64,000 bases of DNA from a virus (IMGVR_UViG_3300030012_003189:26964-90963); one strand, 5' to 3'; shown: positions 11,254 to 56,740, counted from the first letter of the stretch. A program made the numbers and translations. Notes: generated by a model not told the origin, from the letters alone.

Positions 11254-11623
11254 ATTTTAATTGTTTTAAAATTTCATATTCTTCTGATGTTAGTTTTATA
11301 TTGTTTGGATTCTCTAAAATAAATTCAATATTTCCATTTTCTATCGAATCTCTTAACAAACTTATCGTACTATCTGCTAAGTTAGATAGTCTACAATCTT
11401 TATCAATTACAATTTTAAATACACATTCACTAAGGTGAAACTTAGAAAAGTCCCTCATTGTAGTTTTTTTACAATCTGTAGTATCAATATGTTCTTTTGT
11501 AAATGTATTCTCATCATAATTTACAATCATACTGTTTGCAAATAAAGTTTTTAGTTTTGTTTTATCAAAACCATTCTTAACGTATCCATCAGGACACAAT
11601 ATTTCAAATAAATGTTTTTTCAT
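11243..11623 (-). CDS. Hypothetical protein, 126 aa
   Basis: This is a 126-residue acidic/basic mixed protein with no signal peptide or membrane segment. It contains four Cys (CPDGY, DCKK, SECVF, DCRL) spread along the chain and no recognisable catalytic motif. Its start overlaps the LamG-like gene upstream by 20 bases and its end overlaps the SDR start by 11 bases, so it is clearly part of the glycan operon. I do not recognise the family. Confidence 0.7.
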   Translation of the reverse strand: MKKHLFEILCPDGYVKNGFDKTKLKTLFANSMIVNYDENTFTKEHIDTTDCKKTTMRDFSKFHLSECVFKIVIDKDCRLSNLADSTISLLRDSIENGNIEFILENPNNIKLTSEEYEILKQLKYEI

Positions 11624-12380
11624 CTCCTAAAATATTTACATCTAATGTTCTCCAAGGCTCAACATCATATATTTTTTTAATTAATCCAATGTTTATTTCT
11701 AAATTAAAACAATTTCCACTATTATCGTATGCCTTATACTTTGTTAATTCATTTGTGTTTATCAAAAATATGGAATTTGCTAAAGGTTTTACAAGATTTC
11801 TTTTTACATCTTTATTTCTTTCTAAAAAATCTTCAATTCTTTGAAATGTATAAAGTTTATCAAATAATCCAGCTCTCCACAATGTATATTGGCAAATAGC
11901 TTTGTGTTCATCTGTTAAATCATGTTCATAGTTTGCTATTCCAAAGTTAAATGGGGTATCGCTATAATCATGCAACCCACCAATATAGTCTATTTCTTTG
12001 GAAAATGTTTTATCATCATCTAAACAAGTTAATTTTGCTTTAAATCTTTTTGATATTGAATCATGACTTATAATCATAACATATCTTTTATATAAGTTTT
12101 CTTTACCAACATAAAATGATATATCATTAAAATTAGATTTACCATCAATCACATCCCAAAAATCCCAAGTGAACATATTTCTATTTTTAGCAAATACACC
12201 CATATGTTTACCTGGTCTACAAAAAATACAATGAGTATCTCCTGTATTTATTTCATCCATTTGAAATTCTACATAAAAAGTAAAATCTTTTTGTGTAGAT
12301 TCCCAAACATTTGTATCAGTAAATCTATAACTATTATTATTTGTAATGAACCAAGGTCTTTTGTGTAATATCTTTAACAT
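11604..12380 (-). CDS. Concanavalin A-like (LamG-type) lectin domain protein
   Basis: This 258-residue protein reads as a single beta-rich domain: FTFYVEFQMDEI, HMGVFAKNRNM, YKRYVMIISHDSISKRFKAK, PFNFGIANYE and CQYTLWRAGLFDKLYT. The succession of strands and the closing (x)xLWxxxL(x)D-type segment resemble LamG/Laminin_G_3 folds, which bind carbohydrates. No signal peptide is visible. LamG-type domains are also inserted in two glycosyltransferases of the same operon (13809-15251 and 15882-17327), so a carbohydrate-binding role linked to these enzymes is plausible. The assignment is by pattern and remains moderate. Confidence 0.5.
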   Translation of the reverse strand: MLKILHKRPWFITNNNSYRFTDTNVWESTQKDFTFYVEFQMDEINTGDTHCIFCRPGKHMGVFAKNRNMFTWDFWDVIDGKSNFNDISFYVGKENLYKRYVMIISHDSISKRFKAKLTCLDDDKTFSKEIDYIGGLHDYSDTPFNFGIANYEHDLTDEHKAICQYTLWRAGLFDKLYTFQRIEDFLERNKDVKRNLVKPLANSIFLINTNELTKYKAYDNSGNCFNLEINIGLIKKIYDVEPWRTLDVNILGDEKTFI

Positions 12381-13795
12381 AGTGATTTACATTTATGGTA
12401 AAAATCTTCCAATTCAGGAAAAGTTTCTAAAAAGTTTGTATTTCTTCTCATATCATGAGCATTAAAATATCTATAAAAATTTTGCATTGACATTTTAAGA
12501 TGCTTAGGGTCTACATCAGCGTTCATCCAATCATATATCCTTTTTACTTTTTGTATCTCTATATCTGAGTATCCAATGTAGTTATGGTCAAAAATTGGAA
12601 CTCCTTGAAAGAACATAAGTTTGGATTGTTCTAATACAGTATCTTTCCATTTTTTATCTTGTAGTAATTGTACACTTTGATGCCAAGGATATCTTAGGTA
12701 TGATGAATCTAAAAATACAGCTGATGCCCAATATCTATCTGATGTTCCATACTCTTGTTTTAAATCATAAATACCATCTATAAGTTTTATATAATTTGGA
12801 ACAGAAAGAAGTCCGTATGTTCCCATTACCGTAATATTAACTCTTGGACACTTAGTAAGAATTTTATTTAAATTATCCCAAAATCTATTAAATTCTAAAC
12901 CAGTCCTTATGTACTCAGCTTGTTTACCCCAAGTATCAACTGATGTAAATATGATAAATTCTTTAACTCTATCTTCATCAGAAATTTTATTTATTTTATC
13001 GATAAATCTATCAACCAATTTATCATCAATACCTAAATTAGAATTTATTGCTAATTGTAAGTTTTTATTTGGGTTTGGTTCTTCTATTATATAATCTAAT
13101 ACTTTCCATGTATCTTTTGATAGTAATGGTTCACCACCAGTAATTCTAAATGTATGTAAATCTCTATATAAATCTGGCCACCATTTCCAAAATGCTTCTA
13201 CATATGGATTATGTTCAGTTTGTTTTTGAGGCCACTTATCTTCATCAATATGTCTTTGTTTAGAATTAAAATCATCTGAGGTTGGATAACCTCCAAACTT
13301 TTCAACTTCTTGTTGCCAAGTTGTTGAATATGCAGGTCCACAATAAGAACATTTAAAATTACAAGTGTGAGAGAATGCTACCTCTACATATTTTGGATTA
13401 TAATCAGCTCTCCAGTCTGATGTTGCTATTTCATCCATATGAGGTAAAGACCAACTTTCATTTGATTTAAAAACTCTATCTGAAAATTGATTTGAATTAT
13501 CTTCTACATTCCAACAATAATCGCACTCTTTAGGTCTTTTACCTTCAAGCATTTCTTTCCTTCTTCTTTTCTTAAATGAAGTATTGTGAAGTGCGGATGG
13601 ATTTCTTTGAATCTCCCTTACAGGTATTTTATGTGTTTTAGGATGGTGGCACGAATGTGTATGACCAGTTTGCATTTGTATTGTAACCTGTGTCCATTTT
13701 GCTAAACAAAATCCACATCCAACTTTATCTAATTTGTTTTTTGTGGATACGAAATGTTTATTTTCGTGATGATTCCAATTATTATCTGTTGACAT
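12374..13795 (-). CDS. Twitch-type radical SAM protein
   Basis: This 473-residue protein contains CNFKCSYC (Cx3Cx2C) near residues 145-152, the radical SAM cluster motif, followed by TFRITGGEPLLSKDTW, the GGEP motif that binds the SAM amino group. Before the barrel sit further Cys groups (GCGFCLAKW, SCHHP, CDYCWN), likely ligands of an auxiliary cluster. The architecture is widespread in marine T4-like phages and bacteria and is generally annotated as twitch-domain radical SAM. The substrate is unknown; a peptide or a sugar is possible. It overlaps the LamG-like gene by 7 bases. Confidence 0.8.
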   Translation of the reverse strand: MSTDNNWNHHENKHFVSTKNKLDKVGCGFCLAKWTQVTIQMQTGHTHSCHHPKTHKIPVREIQRNPSALHNTSFKKRRRKEMLEGKRPKECDYCWNVEDNSNQFSDRVFKSNESWSLPHMDEIATSDWRADYNPKYVEVAFSHTCNFKCSYCGPAYSTTWQQEVEKFGGYPTSDDFNSKQRHIDEDKWPQKQTEHNPYVEAFWKWWPDLYRDLHTFRITGGEPLLSKDTWKVLDYIIEEPNPNKNLQLAINSNLGIDDKLVDRFIDKINKISDEDRVKEFIIFTSVDTWGKQAEYIRTGLEFNRFWDNLNKILTKCPRVNITVMGTYGLLSVPNYIKLIDGIYDLKQEYGTSDRYWASAVFLDSSYLRYPWHQSVQLLQDKKWKDTVLEQSKLMFFQGVPIFDHNYIGYSDIEIQKVKRIYDWMNADVDPKHLKMSMQNFYRYFNAHDMRRNTNFLETFPELEDFYHKCKSLC

Positions 13796-13808
13796 ATATT
13801 AATACATA

Positions 13809-15251
13809 TTAAAACTTTACATTTATCATTTTTGCTTTAGGGTTGATTTCCTCTATACTAACCAACTCATATTTTAGCTGCTTGATACCATCAGATTTGT
13901 AATCCCACTTACCTTGCTGCATTTCCAAAACATATCTTCTTTCATTTCTTGCTGTAGTTTCTCCTTTAGCCCACCTATCTTGTCCTTTATTATCTGATAT
14001 CAATCCTTCATCTTTATGGTGTAGACAAAACATTCTCCCCTTTCTTCGATGTGGAATTGGTGGTTGTGATAATTTGATTATTTCTTCTCCAGTAGTTATT
14101 GTTTCCACTTCACCATCATAACTATTACCACTAATATCCTTTGCTTCACCATTTTCAAATTCATAGTGAAGTTTTAAACCATCGGATGGAATATTATTTG
14201 TTAATTGTTTTATTTCATCATCTTTTAAATTTCTATCCCATAACATTACCTTTGCTATATCACCTTTAAAGAATCTACTAGCATCTCTTTCACCAACAGA
14301 AGTTGTGTGTCCTAACGTGAATGGCATAGAACCATACCTTTTTAACTTACCATCAAAACTAAGTGGTGAATGAGTTCCATGTCCATGTCTTGCATCAGAT
14401 TCCGTACCATTTAGATAAAAATGTATTTTATTGTTTTCAGTATCAATTGATAATGTTATCCAACTCCAATAATTTTCATATCGTTTCATCCATTGATATA
14501 GAGCTTCTTTTTTATGATTCCATAATAGTGATGTATATGCTCTACTGTTATTGTAACTCAATCCCCAATCATATCCTGCTCTCCTAATTATAGGATATTC
14601 ACAAAATCTTCTATCCCAATCACCAACTAACCATATTGGAACTTTTTCTTCTTGTTGATTTGCCTTTACCAATACTGAAACTGTATGAGATTTTGATGTG
14701 AGGTGTGCAATACCTCTATCTACTGGGATTGTTACCTTTGAATTAGTACCATTGAATCTTAAAAAGTTTTGTTTACCAATTTCTACTTCTCTCACATTAG
14801 CATATCCTTCTAAATAACATCTCCAAAACAAATCATCATCTTCCATACCCCAATCCCAATAATCATTTGAATATCCGTTGGTTTTTTCAACTTGTTCTTT
14901 GTTAAAAAGTACTGCTCCACCAAAATATTCCTGATATTTTAGTTCATAGTTCATTTGTGATATATGAGTTGCTATATGAATAGGTGTTTTTTCAGGAAAA
15001 GAATAATCAGTTCCTTCTTCTGGTATCATATCGATATCGTGCCAAACGATATAATCACAACCATCTTCGAATGCATGTTTTGCAGCTACATTTTTTGTTG
15101 CTCCTCTATTAAATAACTTATCATCTACTTGATGAGCAAAGTACATACAATAATCTATACCTTTAGACTCCAAATATGCTCCGACTTTTGGCACAAACTC
15201 TTTTAAGTGAGCTTCTCTATTTCTATATGGTACACAAACTCCTAATTTCAT
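13809..15251 (-). CDS. GT7 (beta-1,4-galactosyltransferase-type) glycosyltransferase with inserted LamG domain
   Basis: This 480-residue protein has GT7 motifs in order: VPYRNREAHL (residues 7-16), FNRGATKNVA (about 48), HDIDMIP with the metal-binding DxD (about 71), YFGGAVLF, then NGYSNDYWDWGMEDDDLF (about 125-140). The family's C-terminal end also appears, RMFCLHHKDE (about 407) with the metal-ligand His and DGIKQLKYELV (about 452). Between them (about 165-385) is a LamG-type domain: LRFNGTNSKVTIPV, KIHFYLNG, PFTLGHTT and FKGDIAKVMLWDRNL. The lectin thus interrupts the catalytic domain. A paralogue lies at 15882-17327. It is likely cytoplasmic, transferring a hexose to an N-acetylhexosamine-type acceptor. 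Confidence 0.85.
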   Translation of the reverse strand: MKLGVCVPYRNREAHLKEFVPKVGAYLESKGIDYCMYFAHQVDDKLFNRGATKNVAAKHAFEDGCDYIVWHDIDMIPEEGTDYSFPEKTPIHIATHISQMNYELKYQEYFGGAVLFNKEQVEKTNGYSNDYWDWGMEDDDLFWRCYLEGYANVREVEIGKQNFLRFNGTNSKVTIPVDRGIAHLTSKSHTVSVLVKANQQEEKVPIWLVGDWDRRFCEYPIIRRAGYDWGLSYNNSRAYTSLLWNHKKEALYQWMKRYENYWSWITLSIDTENNKIHFYLNGTESDARHGHGTHSPLSFDGKLKRYGSMPFTLGHTTSVGERDASRFFKGDIAKVMLWDRNLKDDEIKQLTNNIPSDGLKLHYEFENGEAKDISGNSYDGEVETITTGEEIIKLSQPPIPHRRKGRMFCLHHKDEGLISDNKGQDRWAKGETTARNERRYVLEMQQGKWDYKSDGIKQLKYELVSIEEINPKAKMINVKF

Positions 15252-15406
15252 TTAGATTCTCTAATATCTACTAATAATTGCATTACTTCTTCTAACTTAT
15301 ATTTTGATTCTTGCCCTTCACACAAATCTTGACAACATATATCCAAATTTCTGTGAATAAATTGTAACTTTTCATCTATCTCATCCCATTTGTTTTCCAA
15401 TCCCAT
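15248..15406 (-). CDS. Small hypothetical protein, 52 aa
   Basis: This 52-residue ORF, ATG at 15404-15406 and TGA at 15248-15250, fills the gap between the cytidylyltransferase and the GT7 gene. Its stop overlaps the GT7 start as ATGA, and its start is two bases after the upstream stop, which strongly suggests that it is translated. The protein is acidic and helical in appearance (LENKWDEIDEKLQF, KLEEVMQLLVDIRE) with a central ICCQDLC cysteine cluster. It may be a small coiled-coil or metal-binding accessory. No family is recognised. Confidence 0.6.
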   Translation of the reverse strand: MGLENKWDEIDEKLQFIHRNLDICCQDLCEGQESKYKLEEVMQLLVDIRESK

Positions 15407-15408
15407 AC

Positions 15409-15885
15409 TTAATCCATTTCTAATTTTCTATCAAAGTGTTTTGCATCTTTTAATACTTGTGGATTTTGTTTGATTGTTTGCATAGAAATCATATCCTTCA
15501 TCTTAGTTGTTGACCAACCATGTGCTCGAGTTGTATAAACAATCTTTGGTGGTAAGTCATCACCAGTAAATGATTTACCAATGTAATCTTCACCTAAGAT
15601 TCTTATATCAGGTTTAAAAAACTCTATTAAACGTCTTAGCTCTTTTTCTGTTTGATATACATAAACTTCATCTATATATCTTATAGCCATCAATGTACGA
15701 TATCTTTCATGTATAGGAATTACAGGTTTATATTTTGATTTTCTATGTTCGGATGGGTCTCTATGTAAAAACACTATGAACTTATCACAATGTTCTTTTG
15801 CTGCTTCGAATGTGTAAATGTAACCCGGATGAATTAAATCAAAATTACCAGCCGTAAATCCTACTATCTGTTTTTGTTTTTTCAT
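15409..15885 (-). CDS. Glycerol-3-phosphate-cytidylyltransferase-like nucleotidyltransferase
   Basis: This 158-residue protein has GFTAGNFDLIHPGYIYTFE, a HxGH-type motif with the last His replaced by Tyr (HPGY), then PIHERYRTLMAIRYIDEV and WSTTKMKD, the expected STT nucleotide-binding segment. This matches TagD/RfaE-type cytidylyltransferases, which make CDP-glycerol or ADP-heptose-like activated sugars. Replacement of the second His of HxGH is unusual and might alter catalysis. It is translationally linked (4-bp overlap) to the second GT7 gene upstream, so it may supply an activated donor for that cluster. Confidence 0.75.
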   Translation of the reverse strand: MKKQKQIVGFTAGNFDLIHPGYIYTFEAAKEHCDKFIVFLHRDPSEHRKSKYKPVIPIHERYRTLMAIRYIDEVYVYQTEKELRRLIEFFKPDIRILGEDYIGKSFTGDDLPPKIVYTTRAHGWSTTKMKDMISMQTIKQNPQVLKDAKHFDRKLEMD

Positions 15886-17327
15886 AATTCTACTGTTATA
15901 TAGTTAACTTTCTGATTTCCATAATCAGTACCAAATGTTAATTTGTTATCACTTATAGTTTTGAATTTTAATGAATCTATTCCATCCCTTCTCCAATTAG
16001 TTTTACCTTTTAGCACTTTATTATAAAATCTAAGTTGGTTTTTACGAGTTTCTGTATAAATCCATTTGTTTTCATAGAATCCATTATCGTCGTGATGTAA
16101 CAATTCAAATTTAGAGTTTCTTCGCCACGGAATTGTTATCTCTTGATAATCTTCAATATGTGGAGTTGATATTCTATTACAATGGTGTATTTTACCATTT
16201 GAACCATTACCAGTAAGTTCAATTAGTTTGTGATATGTAGATGCTTTAGCATCATATGCACATTCTAAACAATGTGGTGTGGTGTATCCATCAAATCCTT
16301 CGGTTACACCAATACCTAAGTTATTATATATGGATTCTACTTGACCCGGCTCTAATGAATGATTCCAAATTGCTACTTGATTTATTAAACCATTAAAAAA
16401 CCTTCTTCCATTTTGTGAGTTTGGACCAGGCCTACCTAAGTAAAAATACTTTTGATTGTGGTATGGTAGCAATCTACCTTCAAATGTAGCTTCATCAATT
16501 AACTCACCATCTTGATATAGTTTTACAAACTTATTATACTGGTCTACAACTACCATAAGTGTAGTTCTTCTTTCTGTACCGATTGTTGATTTTAAACTTA
16601 TACATTCTTTTTTAGATGTAAATGTTTCAAACTTAAATCGTTTAAATGAATTAAATGTAAATCCAGTATCAAAACCAGGTACTGATAAAATAGAATATTC
16701 ATCTACTTCTAAATTTTCACTTAAATCCATTTTGTATGGTTCGCATTCTAACAACATAGTGTAATTATCCAAACCAAATTTCATCGGTATTTTAACTTCA
16801 CTATCATATCCATTGAATTCTAAACCAGCGGTGTTCCAAGTTTTAATTGGTTGGTGTTTTAAATTTAAATCAAAAAAGTTTTCTTTACATCTGAATAGTA
16901 AATCATCATCTTCATATCCCCATCCCCAATATTCATTTGAGTACCCATTTACTTTGTAGTAATCCATTATAGGAAACAAAGTAACTCCTCCGAAATATGA
17001 ATCGAAGATAATTCTTTTTTCTCCTACCTTAGATACAAAGTTTGTAGCAAGGTGAGTTGGTCTGTTTACATATGAATAATCAACATCCATAGGTAACATA
17101 TCCACATCATGCAGAGCTACATAGGTACATTTTAACTTTTTTGCTCTTTCTACACCAATGTTAAGTAACTTACCTCTATTGAAAGGTTTATCATCAGCTT
17201 GCTCTACCACAATAATCTCATATGGTATCTTCTGCTTTTTAAGATGATTTGATATAGAAGGAATAAATTGGTTAAGATGTTCTCTACGATTTCTGTAAGG
17301 AACAACTATACCAATTTTATTTTTCAT
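15882..17327 (-). CDS. GT7 (beta-1,4-galactosyltransferase-type) glycosyltransferase with inserted LamG domain, second copy
   Basis: This 481-residue protein has the same architecture as 13809-15251: VPYRNRREHL (8-17), FNRGKLLNIG (49), HDVDMLP (73), YFGGVTLF, NGYSNEYWGWGYEDDDLLF (about 127-143), then a LamG-type insertion (about 170-385, with LEFNGYDSEVKIPM, VKLYQDGELI, KYFYLGRPG and FNGLINQVAIWNHSL), and the GT7 tail FELLHHDD (about 407) and DGIDSLKF (about 450) ending in VNYITVEL. The tail follows the vertebrate-type pattern DGLNSLxY...ITVDI. Metal-binding Asp and His residues are kept, so it is likely active. Donor and acceptor are unknown. Confidence 0.85.
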   Translation of the reverse strand: MKNKIGIVVPYRNRREHLNQFIPSISNHLKKQKIPYEIIVVEQADDKPFNRGKLLNIGVERAKKLKCTYVALHDVDMLPMDVDYSYVNRPTHLATNFVSKVGEKRIIFDSYFGGVTLFPIMDYYKVNGYSNEYWGWGYEDDDLLFRCKENFFDLNLKHQPIKTWNTAGLEFNGYDSEVKIPMKFGLDNYTMLLECEPYKMDLSENLEVDEYSILSVPGFDTGFTFNSFKRFKFETFTSKKECISLKSTIGTERRTTLMVVVDQYNKFVKLYQDGELIDEATFEGRLLPYHNQKYFYLGRPGPNSQNGRRFFNGLINQVAIWNHSLEPGQVESIYNNLGIGVTEGFDGYTTPHCLECAYDAKASTYHKLIELTGNGSNGKIHHCNRISTPHIEDYQEITIPWRRNSKFELLHHDDNGFYENKWIYTETRKNQLRFYNKVLKGKTNWRRDGIDSLKFKTISDNKLTFGTDYGNQKVNYITVEL

Positions 17328-17546: not shown

Positions 17547-18407
17547 TTAAATTTTTAATATTCCTTTTGTTAGTCTATTCCAATATTGATAATCCCAATG
17601 TTCGTTTTCAATAGGAATTTGTCTTTCCAATCCAAACTTTACATTATCGATATCTATTTTCCAATCATTATCTTTGATTGCGTTATACATCTTTTTGTAT
17701 TCTTCCCAAAAAGTGTAATCTTCTTCTGTTTCTGAAACTTCTTTTAATCTTTCTAAAACAGTTGAATCCCATTTGAAGTGATGAACTTGTACAAATCCTT
17801 CACCTCTACCAGGTGGGTATCTTAAAGAGTGATTAACACCTTCTTCTCCCCACACATCCTTTCCATCAATATGTGCGTAATGCTGTCCGTTTGTTATTTG
17901 AATCTTTCCTTTCATTACACACACTTTATTTGGACAAGCTCCACTAAGTGGATACCTAAAAAAACCACTATATGGAAACGCTTCCCATATATTAGTTTCG
18001 CTATCTACAATGGGAAAACTCCCATCCTCTCCAATCCTATCCAAGAATCCACCTGTGATAAACTCCCATCCTTTTACTTCACATTCATCAATCATTTCTT
18101 CAATTGGCTTTGGATAAATCTGAATCTCATCATCATCTGATACAATCCACCAATCGTTTGGTTTAGTCATCTTTACTTCATTATAAAGTTCAGTTACCTT
18201 TTCCCAATGAAACTTTGGTTCAGTTACTACTTTGTAAGGAGTCAATCCCAAGTTTTCAATTTCCTCTAATATCCCATCGTTCTCATCTTGTCGATAAACT
18301 ACGATAAAGATATTTTTTTCATCCACAAATTGCTGATAGTATTTCAACATATGTGGTAACATAGTGATGTTATGCCCAACTACTGTTACTAAGTTTAAAC
18401 CCTGCAT
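17547..18407 (-). CDS. Glycosyltransferase, GT-A fold (GT92/GT2-like)
   Basis: The start chosen is the ATG at 18405-18407, which gives 286 residues and a 13-base overlap with the upstream methyltransferase. An earlier ATG at 18485 would overlap by 91 bases and add 26 residues before the fold begins. The protein opens with a GT-A type strand (LVTVVGHNITMLPHML), has NDWWIVSDDDEIQIYP with the metal-binding DxD motif, and a VHHFKWDSTVLERL segment like GT92/DUF23 proteins. It is a cytoplasmic transferase of unknown specificity within the glycan operon. Confidence 0.7.
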   Translation of the reverse strand: MQGLNLVTVVGHNITMLPHMLKYYQQFVDEKNIFIVVYRQDENDGILEEIENLGLTPYKVVTEPKFHWEKVTELYNEVKMTKPNDWWIVSDDDEIQIYPKPIEEMIDECEVKGWEFITGGFLDRIGEDGSFPIVDSETNIWEAFPYSGFFRYPLSGACPNKVCVMKGKIQITNGQHYAHIDGKDVWGEEGVNHSLRYPPGRGEGFVQVHHFKWDSTVLERLKEVSETEEDYTFWEEYKKMYNAIKDNDWKIDIDNVKFGLERQIPIENEHWDYQYWNRLTKGILKI

Positions 18408-19174
18408 CTTTGTATCAGTGTCAACCCAGTTGTAGATGGTTTTTCTTTCATCACCCCGTTGTTGAAGAAATTGAAAAGTTCCCATTCGTTACTTTCTTTT
18501 AGTTCTTTTATGAGTTTATTAGGTCCATCAAATGGAGCATGATGGTTTTTTTCTTTTACATCTTCCGTTATGATGAGTTCTTTTTCAAAAGATTCATCTG
18601 TATCGTGGATTGAAATTACACCATAATCCGATAAGATACTTGAGTAAAGAGTAAAATCATTTTTAACATCATCATACGAGTGACCCGCATCTATGTGTAG
18701 GTAATCTATCTTTATATCTTCCTTAACAAAGAAGTTATAAAATGCGTTTTCGGTGGTATCTAAGATAACTCTACAATCAAAGTTTTTCCTAAAGAATGAA
18801 CGTTTATCCGTCCAATCAGTAAACCCTCCTACTCCGTTATCTGCATCAACTACGAATGTAGTACCACAATCACCCCACTCCATCTGTTTTAGACCTGTAA
18901 ATATTTTTTGGTCATGCAAATCTATTCTCGCTTGTGTCATTATACGAGGAATAAATCCACCACCACTTCCTAAACATACACATACCTTTGCTCTCATCAT
19001 TTGTATGGTAGAATATATAATCATACCATCACCTAAATGTAAATCGGTTGCTCCATGTGTCCATCTATATGGAACAGGTGCAATATCAGTAAAAGGTTTA
19101 CCATTAGTATCCCTCTTTTTGACTTGATTGTTTGATATGTATTTTTCTATTAAACCTAAATTAAGTAAAGACAT
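18395..19174 (-). CDS. Class I SAM-dependent methyltransferase
   Basis: This 259-residue protein has a glycine-rich SAM motif CLGSGGGFIPRIM (motif I, about residue 67), a DADNG segment and the Methyltransf_24 hallmark IDYLHIDAGHSYDDVKNDF followed by GVISIHDT (about 150-190). Family members O-methylate sugars, among other substrates. It leads the glycan stretch downstream of an ATATTTATAT element 22 bases before the start. It probably methylates a sugar made in this cluster. The substrate is unknown. Confidence 0.75.
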   Translation of the reverse strand: MSLLNLGLIEKYISNNQVKKRDTNGKPFTDIAPVPYRWTHGATDLHLGDGMIIYSTIQMMRAKVCVCLGSGGGFIPRIMTQARIDLHDQKIFTGLKQMEWGDCGTTFVVDADNGVGGFTDWTDKRSFFRKNFDCRVILDTTENAFYNFFVKEDIKIDYLHIDAGHSYDDVKNDFTLYSSILSDYGVISIHDTDESFEKELIITEDVKEKNHHAPFDGPNKLIKELKESNEWELFNFFNNGVMKEKPSTTGLTLIQRCRV

Positions 19175-26252: not shown

Positions 26253-27068
26253 TTAAACAACTGCTCTACCTTTCATATTTTCCCAATCCCTATTTGTTCT
26301 CACAACATCATTGGTTTCTTCTACGGCATTTAAAACATTCGATTCAGTATCTAAATTCATAGCTAAGTATATTAGAGCCGATAAGTCTTTAGGTAAACAA
26401 TGTCCTCCAAATCCAAAATCACCATCTGGTCCTGGTACATTCCAATGTGATTTACCTAATCTATCATCTAATGTTGCATATTCAACAACTTTATCGTAAT
26501 CAATATTTAACTTTTCACACACTTGATATATTTCATTAGCAAAAGAAACTTTAGTTGCCAAAAATGAATTGGTCAAATATTTTACCATTTCAGCGTGGGT
26601 AGAATCTGTTTTAATTATATGAGCTTTTGGAAATACTTTTGAGTATATTCTTCTTAATTTTGTAGTTGATGGTCTTGGTCCTCCTAAGATAATTCTATTT
26701 TGATTATTAAAATCTTCTACTGCATTAGCTTCAGTTAAAAACTCTGGATTGAAAACTATATCAATATCGTAATTTGAATTCCATCGTGCAGTAGTACCTG
26801 GTGATACTGTCGATTTTACAACGATAGTTTTACATTTTTTTAATTTACATATTTTATCAATTGTCCATTCAACTAATTCAGTACTACAACTACCATCACT
26901 ATTCATTGGTGTTGGTAAACAAACGAAAACAATATTTTGTGACATAGCTTCTGTTTCGCCTGATGTTCTTTTGCTTTCATCTAAATCATAAGTGTAAACA
27001 TCGAAGTAATTTTTAAATTTTTGATAAATTGCATTACCAACAAATCCTTGTCCTATAATTCCTATCAT
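26253..27068 (-). CDS. Short UDP-glucose/GDP-mannose dehydrogenase-type protein
   Basis: This 271-residue protein has N-terminal IGIIGQGFVGNAI (NAD-binding), FVCLPTPM, VKSTVSPGTT, FNPEFLTEANAVEDF, TNSFLATKVSFANE and FGFGGHCLPKDLSALI with the catalytic Cys (about residue 223). These are the hallmarks of UDP-glucose 6-dehydrogenase, which oxidises a nucleotide-sugar C6 alcohol to a carboxylate. Family members are usually 390-450 residues; the C-terminal nucleotide-sugar-binding domain is absent here. The remaining piece may have a different substrate. It overlaps RmlB by 4 bases. Confidence 0.75.
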   Translation of the reverse strand: MIGIIGQGFVGNAIYQKFKNYFDVYTYDLDESKRTSGETEAMSQNIVFVCLPTPMNSDGSCSTELVEWTIDKICKLKKCKTIVVKSTVSPGTTARWNSNYDIDIVFNPEFLTEANAVEDFNNQNRIILGGPRPSTTKLRRIYSKVFPKAHIIKTDSTHAEMVKYLTNSFLATKVSFANEIYQVCEKLNIDYDKVVEYATLDDRLGKSHWNVPGPDGDFGFGGHCLPKDLSALIYLAMNLDTESNVLNAVEETNDVVRTNRDWENMKGRAVV

Positions 27069-55018: not shown

Positions 55019-55028
55019 ATATAAATAT
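55019..55028 (-). promoter_or_regulatory. ATATTTATAT element (class I promoter candidate), upstream of the candidate small RNA
   Basis: The coding strand reads AATATTTATATATTG, touching the stop codon of the carbamoyltransferase gene. No coding region follows for 270 bases, unlike the other copies of this element, so the likely product is the structured RNA. An imperfect palindrome around GAGCTC (55002-55017) lies directly downstream and might be an operator. Confidence 0.45.
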
Positions 55029-56740
55029 TAGATTATTTTCTTAGAAATAAAAATATTATCAATCACTAAGAAATCCATATCACAATTCATAAATGTATCA
55101 ATTGCTTCTTGTGCATCTCTAACCATAGTTTGGTCTTTGAGATTGAATGATGTGTTTAGTAGTATTGGATACTTTGTAATCTTCTGATATTCTTTTAGAA
55201 GTTTATACATCTTAGGATTAAAATCTTCTCTAAGTGTTTGTACTCTTGCTGAACCATCGGTGTGTGTGATAGCTGGTAATTTAGTTTGGTGATTTTGTTT
55301 TACCTTTACTATTTGATTCATATAAGGTATCTCTACATTTGGAGTAAAGAATCTTTTCATATCTTCGTAACAAACTATAGGAGCAAATGGTCTAAAACCT
55401 TCTCTTTTCTTTACAACCATATTTACTCTCTTTTTCATTTGTGGGTCTCTTGGGTCTGCTAAGATAGAACGATTACCTAATGCTCTTGCACCGAACTCTA
55501 ATTGACCTCTAACCCAACCAATAATATTTCCTTCTGATATAAGTTTAGCTACTTTTGGTAACAACTCCTCATCAGATAATGCTTCGTAGAATATCTTATC
55601 TTCGTTATCTTTTACAATCTTTACTATATCTAATAGTTTTTCAGATGGGCCTAAGAATGGTGTTTTATTTTCCTTTCTATCATTTGTGATATGATTCCAA
55701 TAGTTTAGAGCTGCTCCAATAGCAGAACCAGCATCAGATGGAGCTGGTGGTATCCAAATGTTTTTAAATGGTGTTCTATCTTGAATCTTACCATTAGCAG
55801 TTCCATTGTATGCACACCCACCACTTAAACATAAGTTTTTAGATTTTGTTTTTTTATACAGCTTATTTAGTAATCTAAAGAAATGCTTTTCATATGTGTA
55901 TTGTAAAGCTGCTGATATATTTTTATGAATATCATTTATTGGTTCTTCGGATAATCTATTTGGTATTCCAAATAGTTTAGATAGTTTTGTATTGAACATA
56001 ATTTTATCGGAATAATGATAAGAGAAGTATTCCATATTTAGTTCAAATCCATCCTCCGTTTCTTTTATTAGTTCATCAAACTTTTTATGATGAAATAGAT
56101 GAGTACCATATGGAGCTAATCCCATAACTTTATACTCACCTTCATTTGGTTTGAATCCTAAGAAAGCAGTAATTGTAGAATAAAGTAATCCTAATGAGTG
56201 TGGATACACTACTTCACTATGTCTTTTTATTATATTATCTTTACCAGTCGCTAATACAGTAGTATCCCATTCACCAACACCATCTACTGATAGTATAGCT
56301 GATTCATCAAAATCTGAGGTAAAGTATGAATATGCTAAATGAGATAAGTGATGATTACCAATGAAAACTTTTGCATTAGGAAATATGTAATCAAAGTGTT
56401 CTAACGGGTTTGTTTTCTTTGGAAACTTAAATGGGTTCTTCCAAAAGTATTTCCAATAAGATTTCCAATCTCTATCGTTTTTAAGATTTGGATTTTCATA
56501 ATAACATACGGCTGATATTTGTTTACCTACAATTTTGTTATTTTTTAAAATCCAATTAATTGAATTTATTGGAAAACTACTATCGTGTTTTATACCAGTA
56601 AATCTTTCTTCTTCTACTGCGTTTAAAACTTTACCATTTTGTATTAGTGCAACTGCTGAATCATGAAATCCAAAAGAGATTCCAATGATATAATCATCAT
56701 AAATGTTCTTCTTCATTCCAAAACTGATTTGGATTGTCAT
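55028..56740 (-). CDS. Carbamoyltransferase (NodU/TobZ family)
   Basis: This 570-residue protein begins a NodU-type fold at IIGISFGFHDSAVALI with GKVLNAVEEERFTG, has IGNHHLSHLAYSYF (the metal-binding His pair), SVDGVGEWDTT, CLSGGCAYNG (about 307) and the C-terminal RGQLEFGARALGNRSI (about 420) with FRPFAPIV. Members use carbamoyl phosphate and ATP to carbamoylate a hydroxyl, commonly on sugars. The start at 56740 overlaps the sigma gene by 44 bases; a second Met at 56716 would reduce this to 20. In this phage it could carbamoylate a glycan, or a hydroxylated base. Confidence 0.85.
   Translation of the reverse strand: MTIQISFGMKKNIYDDYIIGISFGFHDSAVALIQNGKVLNAVEEERFTGIKHDSSFPINSINWILKNNKIVGKQISAVCYYENPNLKNDRDWKSYWKYFWKNPFKFPKKTNPLEHFDYIFPNAKVFIGNHHLSHLAYSYFTSDFDESAILSVDGVGEWDTTVLATGKDNIIKRHSEVVYPHSLGLLYSTITAFLGFKPNEGEYKVMGLAPYGTHLFHHKKFDELIKETEDGFELNMEYFSYHYSDKIMFNTKLSKLFGIPNRLSEEPINDIHKNISAALQYTYEKHFFRLLNKLYKKTKSKNLCLSGGCAYNGTANGKIQDRTPFKNIWIPPAPSDAGSAIGAALNYWNHITNDRKENKTPFLGPSEKLLDIVKIVKDNEDKIFYEALSDEELLPKVAKLISEGNIIGWVRGQLEFGARALGNRSILADPRDPQMKKRVNMVVKKREGFRPFAPIVCYEDMKRFFTPNVEIPYMNQIVKVKQNHQTKLPAITHTDGSARVQTLREDFNPKMYKLLKEYQKITKYPILLNTSFNLKDQTMVRDAQEAIDTFMNCDMDFLVIDNIFISKKII

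Follow-up and report, generated by a model that had tools for sequence, protein, structure and literature searches.

A LamG domain inserted into the catalytic domain of two GT7 galactosyltransferase-like proteins from an uncultivated virus

Judged by sequence homology, two neighbouring viral genes, A and B, encode members of the GT7 glycosyltransferase family with a variant architecture, wherein the catalytic domain is interrupted by about 248 amino acids. The interruption is a LamG domain which, on the same evidence, is inserted between the helix that follows the EDDD motif and the strand that carries the metal-ligand histidine. This GT7-LamG architecture is without precedent in the sources searched, and no account of a phage GT7 enzyme with a lectin insert was found among open-licence PMC papers. 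The two minus-strand open reading frames (ORFs) of the original prediction, with 480 and 481 codons for amino acids, are present where it placed them in the 64,000-nucleotide stretch of viral DNA that was analysed (the window). They are listed here with the parts of their products.

13809-15251, minus strand: gene A, GT7-LamG galactosyltransferase-like protein (ORF, 480 amino acids; Pfam 7N, 7C and LamG)
14793-15251, minus strand: A residues 1-153, GT7 N-terminal part (hhalign to uninterrupted GT7s; PDB match to B4GALT1)
14049-14792, minus strand: A residues 154-401, inserted LamG/ConA-like domain with linkers (Pfam LamG; Foldseek; missing from uninterrupted GT7s)
13809-14048, minus strand: A residues 402-480, GT7 C-terminal part (hhalign to the cellular GT7 C terminus; collinear on B4GALT1)
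15882-17327, minus strand: gene B, GT7-LamG paralogue of A (ORF, 481 amino acids; Pfam)
16860-17327, minus strand: B residues 1-156, GT7 N-terminal part (Pfam; PDB profile match)
16125-16859, minus strand: B residues 157-401, inserted LamG at the same site as in A (hhalign of the A and B LamGs; Foldseek matches to pentraxins and 4dqa)
15882-16124, minus strand: B residues 402-481, GT7 C-terminal part (hhalign to the cellular GT7 C terminus)

Counting only Pfam matches above curated cut-offs, protein A contains Glyco_transf_7N (residues 2-80, E 1.7e-15), Glyco_transf_7C (92-152, 1.7e-18) and Laminin_G_3 (167-348, 3.6e-11), and protein B contains Glyco_transf_7N (2-86, 6.5e-23), Glyco_transf_7C (108-152, 2.7e-15) and LamG (225-330, 5.1e-10). 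Among the members of the family alignments, Pfam finds GT7 domains in 71/71 for A and 67/67 for B, and LamG in 70/71 and 59/67, respectively. There is no Pfam match to a PA14 domain in either protein; the insert is LamG. The N-terminal part of A carries the motifs VPYRNR, FNRG, HDIDM, YFGG and YWDWGMEDDD, and its C-terminal part carries RRKGRMFCLHH, which includes the metal-ligand histidine, followed by NERRY and DGIKQLKY. The proposed order of GT7 motifs, then LamG, then a GT7 C-terminal segment is upheld by both Pfam and the profile alignments.

The contiguous catalytic domain that is the usual form of a GT7 enzyme, though not a strict criterion for one, is absent from A and B. When the A-family and B-family profiles are placed on the solved B4GALT1 structure, there are two collinear stretches. 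Profile positions 3-154 fall on chain residues 51-202, and positions 430-471 of A or 430-473 of B fall on residues 219-269, the second stretch being weak when taken singly. Both proteins have the C-terminal segment with the metal histidine, NxxR(F/Y) and DG(L/I), and hhalign matches their C-terminal parts to the C terminus of cellular GT7s (A, probability 97.7, E 1.7e-12; B, probability 98.3, E 2.6e-14). A comparison of whole chains by hhalign (A1 against A4) returns the N-terminal part only, because a local alignment cannot bridge a gap of 248 amino acids, and the C-terminal part was therefore aligned separately. Foldseek likewise matches the N-terminal part and the LamG as separate hits.

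Uninterrupted GT7s exist in bacteria and viruses, and they are collinear with A and B minus the insert. The bacterial search yielded GT7s without LamG (L113-L141, L143-L157), and HMMs made from the viral N-terminal and C-terminal segments match uninterrupted GT7s back to back, as in L115 (N-terminal segment at 14-158, C-terminal segment at 165-234). On L113, the N-terminal part of A ends at residue 155 and the C-terminal parts of A and B begin at residue 156 (hhalign). Among 402 distinct GT7 sequences, the gap between the N-terminal and C-terminal segments is bimodal, with 200-270 amino acids in all but two of the 315 that carry LamG and -5 to +33 in the 85 that are uninterrupted; the sequences were sampled by similarity, such that the bimodality is meaningful and the proportions are not. 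The adjacent residues at the junction, the collinear uninterrupted relatives and the bimodal gap bear out the claim of an insertion and not an appendix. One could instead suppose that the lectin is appended, that GT7 ends before the LamG, and that the last 80 residues, in which there is no Pfam domain, belong to something else. These residues, spanning the LHH...DGI segment, nevertheless align collinearly with the GT7 C terminus of B4GALT1 and with the C-terminal ends of bacterial GT7s that lack the insert, which rules out a foreign tail and makes this explanation extremely improbable.

AlphaFold2 models built on the family alignments have pLDDT values of 93.3 (A) and 92.9 (B) and pTM values of 0.86 and 0.87. 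Their best Foldseek matches are B4GALT1 and B4GALT7 (~150 columns, 34-38% identity), and the LamG separately matches 4dqa (a putative carbohydrate-binding protein), pentraxins and PAPP-A over ~240-260 columns. From homology and the overall confidence of the models, the parts on either side of the insert are expected to come together as a single GT-A domain. No protein in BFVD matches the full GT7-LamG chain (best TMq 0.39).

The inserts of both proteins have a Laminin_G_3 Pfam match and a ConA-like fold, and the A and B profiles also match sialidase lectin domains and pentraxins in the PDB. The expectation of a ConA-like middle region is therefore confirmed by Pfam, PDB profile matches and Foldseek, although the insert spans residues ~154-401 instead of the ~165-385 first given. 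Conservation is lower in the LamG than in the catalytic part (0.64 versus 0.85 in A; 0.46 versus 0.68 in B), a pattern compatible both with variation in ligand and with a structural role under loose constraint. There are near-invariant aromatic and polar stretches in the LamG of A. A D.SGN.N segment is located C-terminally in these LamGs, and they may be circularly permuted relative to the common LamG_3 repeats.

The positions needed for catalysis were compared in B4GALT1 numbering across sets of A (n=139), B (n=133) and a third GT7-LamG paralogue, C (n=37). The equivalents of the DxD motif, W314, E317, D318 and H347 are retained in 99-100% of A and B sequences. The exceptions are M344, which varies in uninterrupted GT7s too, and D319, which is present in 84% of B. 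Paralogue C occurs in some cassettes (L012:1669-3141, L044:1850-3328, L046:1386-2873 and others), and most of its 37 sequences have lost W314, E317 and D319; decay therefore occurs within the family. This causes us to consider whether A and B are themselves no longer transferases, and serve as lectins on a dead glycosyltransferase scaffold. Such decay is very unlikely to extend to A and B, given the near-complete retention of their catalytic and metal-ligand positions, save M344 and D319 of B. These sequence features indicate that A and B are very probably active enzymes. In GT7 enzymes, a tyrosine at the position of Y289 goes with UDP-galactose, and the equivalent residue is a tyrosine in 98-99% of A and B; on this basis we lean slightly towards UDP-galactose as the donor.

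The segment that follows M344 in GT7 enzymes is a mobile acceptor loop. About 10 residues separate the end of the insert from the metal histidine, and therefore the LamG would be located at the hinge of this loop. We consider it probable that A and B are active UDP-galactose-type GT7 transferases that act as a pair, with the LamG recognizing the acceptor. In this model, both would be metal-dependent, inverting enzymes of the beta-1,4-galactosyltransferase type. The LamG at the hinge would bind the growing glycan or a glycoprotein acceptor, and binding there would couple acceptor capture to closure of the loop. Perhaps A and B add successive sugars to one glycan or form a complex on it, with other steps encoded by neighbouring genes of the cassette. 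The product might decorate the virion, as there is a tail-fibre-like gene upstream, or else the host surface.

Regarding the inserted LamG by itself, the case for an acceptor lectin is evenly balanced in our view. Its main rival is a structural role, wherein the LamG is an assembly module for pairing A with B, or for binding to a different cassette-encoded protein, within an otherwise ordinary GT7 enzyme. LamG domains are also known to bind proteins, the adjacency of A and B is near-obligate, three LamG-bearing products are encoded in one cassette, and no glycan site has been identified in the inserted domain. A pure scaffold, however, gives no reason for insertion next to the active site when the domain could have been appended. 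The near-invariant stretches of the A LamG likewise speak against it, as does the presence of sialidase lectin domains, pentraxins and a putative carbohydrate-binding protein among its closest solved relatives. We therefore judge the structural role to be credible but rather unlikely. More doubtful is the proposal that the two enzymes assemble into an obligate heteromeric polymerase, alternating two sugars, with inserted and free LamGs clamping the chain and the inserted one residing in the moving acceptor gate. If true, this would be a lectin-clamped, processive GT7 system of a kind not known from cells.

Of 203 A genes, 199 have a B gene immediately upstream (the loci partly overlap between scans). 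The conserved cassette has the order methyltransferase, GT2, B, (cytidylyltransferase), A, twitch radical SAM, LamG, SDR, RmlC and E1-like. The description of A and B as tandem genes holds in that they are neighbours and touch in most relatives, but in this virus a cytidylyltransferase-like gene lies between them. The annotated neighbours are as follows.

18395-19174, minus strand: Methyltransf_24-type methyltransferase (Pfam; 62/80 loci)
17547-18485, minus strand: GT2-like glycosyltransferase (weak Pfam match to Glyco_tranf_2_4, below the curated cut-off; 76/80 loci)
15409-15885, minus strand: cytidylyltransferase-like gene between B and A (Pfam CTP_transf_like, 3.9e-15; 20/80 relatives)
12374-13795, minus strand: twitch-domain radical SAM protein, N_Twi_rSAM (NCBIfam NF033640, E 2.9e-104; 80/80 loci), which perhaps modifies a sugar
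11604-12380, minus strand: free-standing LamG protein (family profile against the A and B LamGs; conserved position after the radical SAM gene)

The free LamG gene has no Pfam match. However, a profile of its family, which includes positional equivalents, aligns with the LamGs of A and B over nearly the whole length (probability 99.5/99.7), versus probabilities below 1 for control profiles from four other cassette families. The family HMM also matches 124 GT7-LamG proteins (best E 1.9e-31). The A and B LamGs are homologous to each other (hhalign E 3.9e-39), and in the LamG tree the inserted copies of A, B and C fall on one side of a branch that separates them from the free copies, with support of 100/99. 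The GT7 tree has firm clades for A and for C; a clade of all inserted sequences is absent from the best free tree and is not rejected (p-AU 0.38). The simplest reading is that the LamG was inserted once and the enzyme then duplicated to give A, B and the third paralogue, with the free LamG as kin of the domain that gave rise to the insert. Because both trees are unrooted, the direction of this history is left unfixed.

There are no matches to full-length A, full-length B or the N-terminal part of A in 50,697 phage records. The N-terminal part of B matches only distant glycosyltransferases in these records, nearly all from mycobacteriophages. We rejected these as GT7 candidates, since they are remotely related GT-A proteins that lack the set of GT7 motifs (one inspected). 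In IMG/VR, by contrast, there are at least 171 viral relatives of A, and two wider scans each gave more than 500 GT7 relatives. The idea that GT7 enzymes are rare in phages is accordingly true of catalogued phages, where no GT7-LamG was found, but not of uncultivated viral contigs. Several GT7-LamG genes can occur on one contig (A, B and C types on L290; B and C types on L242), a local expansion of the family.

A lone A-type GT7-LamG gene (L108:2941-4428) is located on a 66 kb contig, JAIFMU010000009.1, with bacterial genes for an ABC exporter, a urea transporter and an SNF2 helicase, and is adjoined by GT2 enzymes and the ABC exporter. A distribution restricted to phages is thereby ruled out, and this locus suggests transfer between phages and bacteria. 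Four other loci from MAGs (L107, L110-L112) share the viral cassette and could be contigs of phages that were binned in MAGs.

The window has a GC content of 30% and is part of a 102,940-base virus record. It includes a gene for a baseplate wedge protein and, upstream of the GT7-LamG cassette, the tail-fibre-like gene, which ends in an S74 endosialidase chaperone; a terminase gene is found elsewhere in the record. These genes lead us to infer a Caudoviricetes-type phage with a contractile tail. Also present are a UDP-glucose dehydrogenase-like gene (26253-27068, minus strand, 271 amino acids), which has the N-terminal and central domains without a match to the C-terminal domain, and, near the structural genes, a Nol-like carbamoyltransferase gene (55028-56740, minus strand; phrog_1601, E 6e-116).

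When a glycosyltransferase has an accessory lectin domain, this is usually appended. In hundreds of environmental viral sequences, the predicted lectin instead interrupts the catalytic domain next to the acceptor site. The uninterrupted GT7 relatives are natural controls, and therefore the effect of the inserted lectin on acceptor choice or processivity is testable. The conservation of the cassette suggests that uncultivated aquatic phages make a glycan that is widespread and as yet undescribed, and the GT7-LamG enzymes could serve as tools for beta-galactosylation.

Among known systems, the GT7s of giant viruses (Mimivirus LCMiAC01 A0A481YZG5, Megaviridae A0A5J6VLB6 and AaV A0A076FM45) share a GT7 catalytic match of ~155-165 columns, but this match is confined to the GT7 N-terminal part. 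The lectin domain is C-terminal in MGAT4 and appended in GALNTs, and the catalytic families of both are unrelated to GT7. GALNT and MGAT4 are lectin-domain transferases in which the lectin domain directs acceptor choice (PMC11254600), the role proposed here for the LamG. Like A and B, B4GALNT3/4 are GT7-type enzymes with an accessory domain from a glycan-binding family, and the PA14 domain of B4GALNT3 is reported to be required for activity and is predicted to be close to the donor site (PMC11254600). They differ in having a PA14 fold instead of LamG, in being human enzymes and in lacking paired genes. Animal B4GALT1 and B4GALT7 (CAZy GT7) share with A and B 34-38% identity over ~150 structurally aligned residues, as well as motif order, the DxD and WGWGxEDDD motifs and the C-terminal metal histidine. 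In contrast, the EDDD helix and the metal-histidine strand of the animal enzymes are not separated by an insert; at this point A and B carry a LamG of ~248 amino acids.
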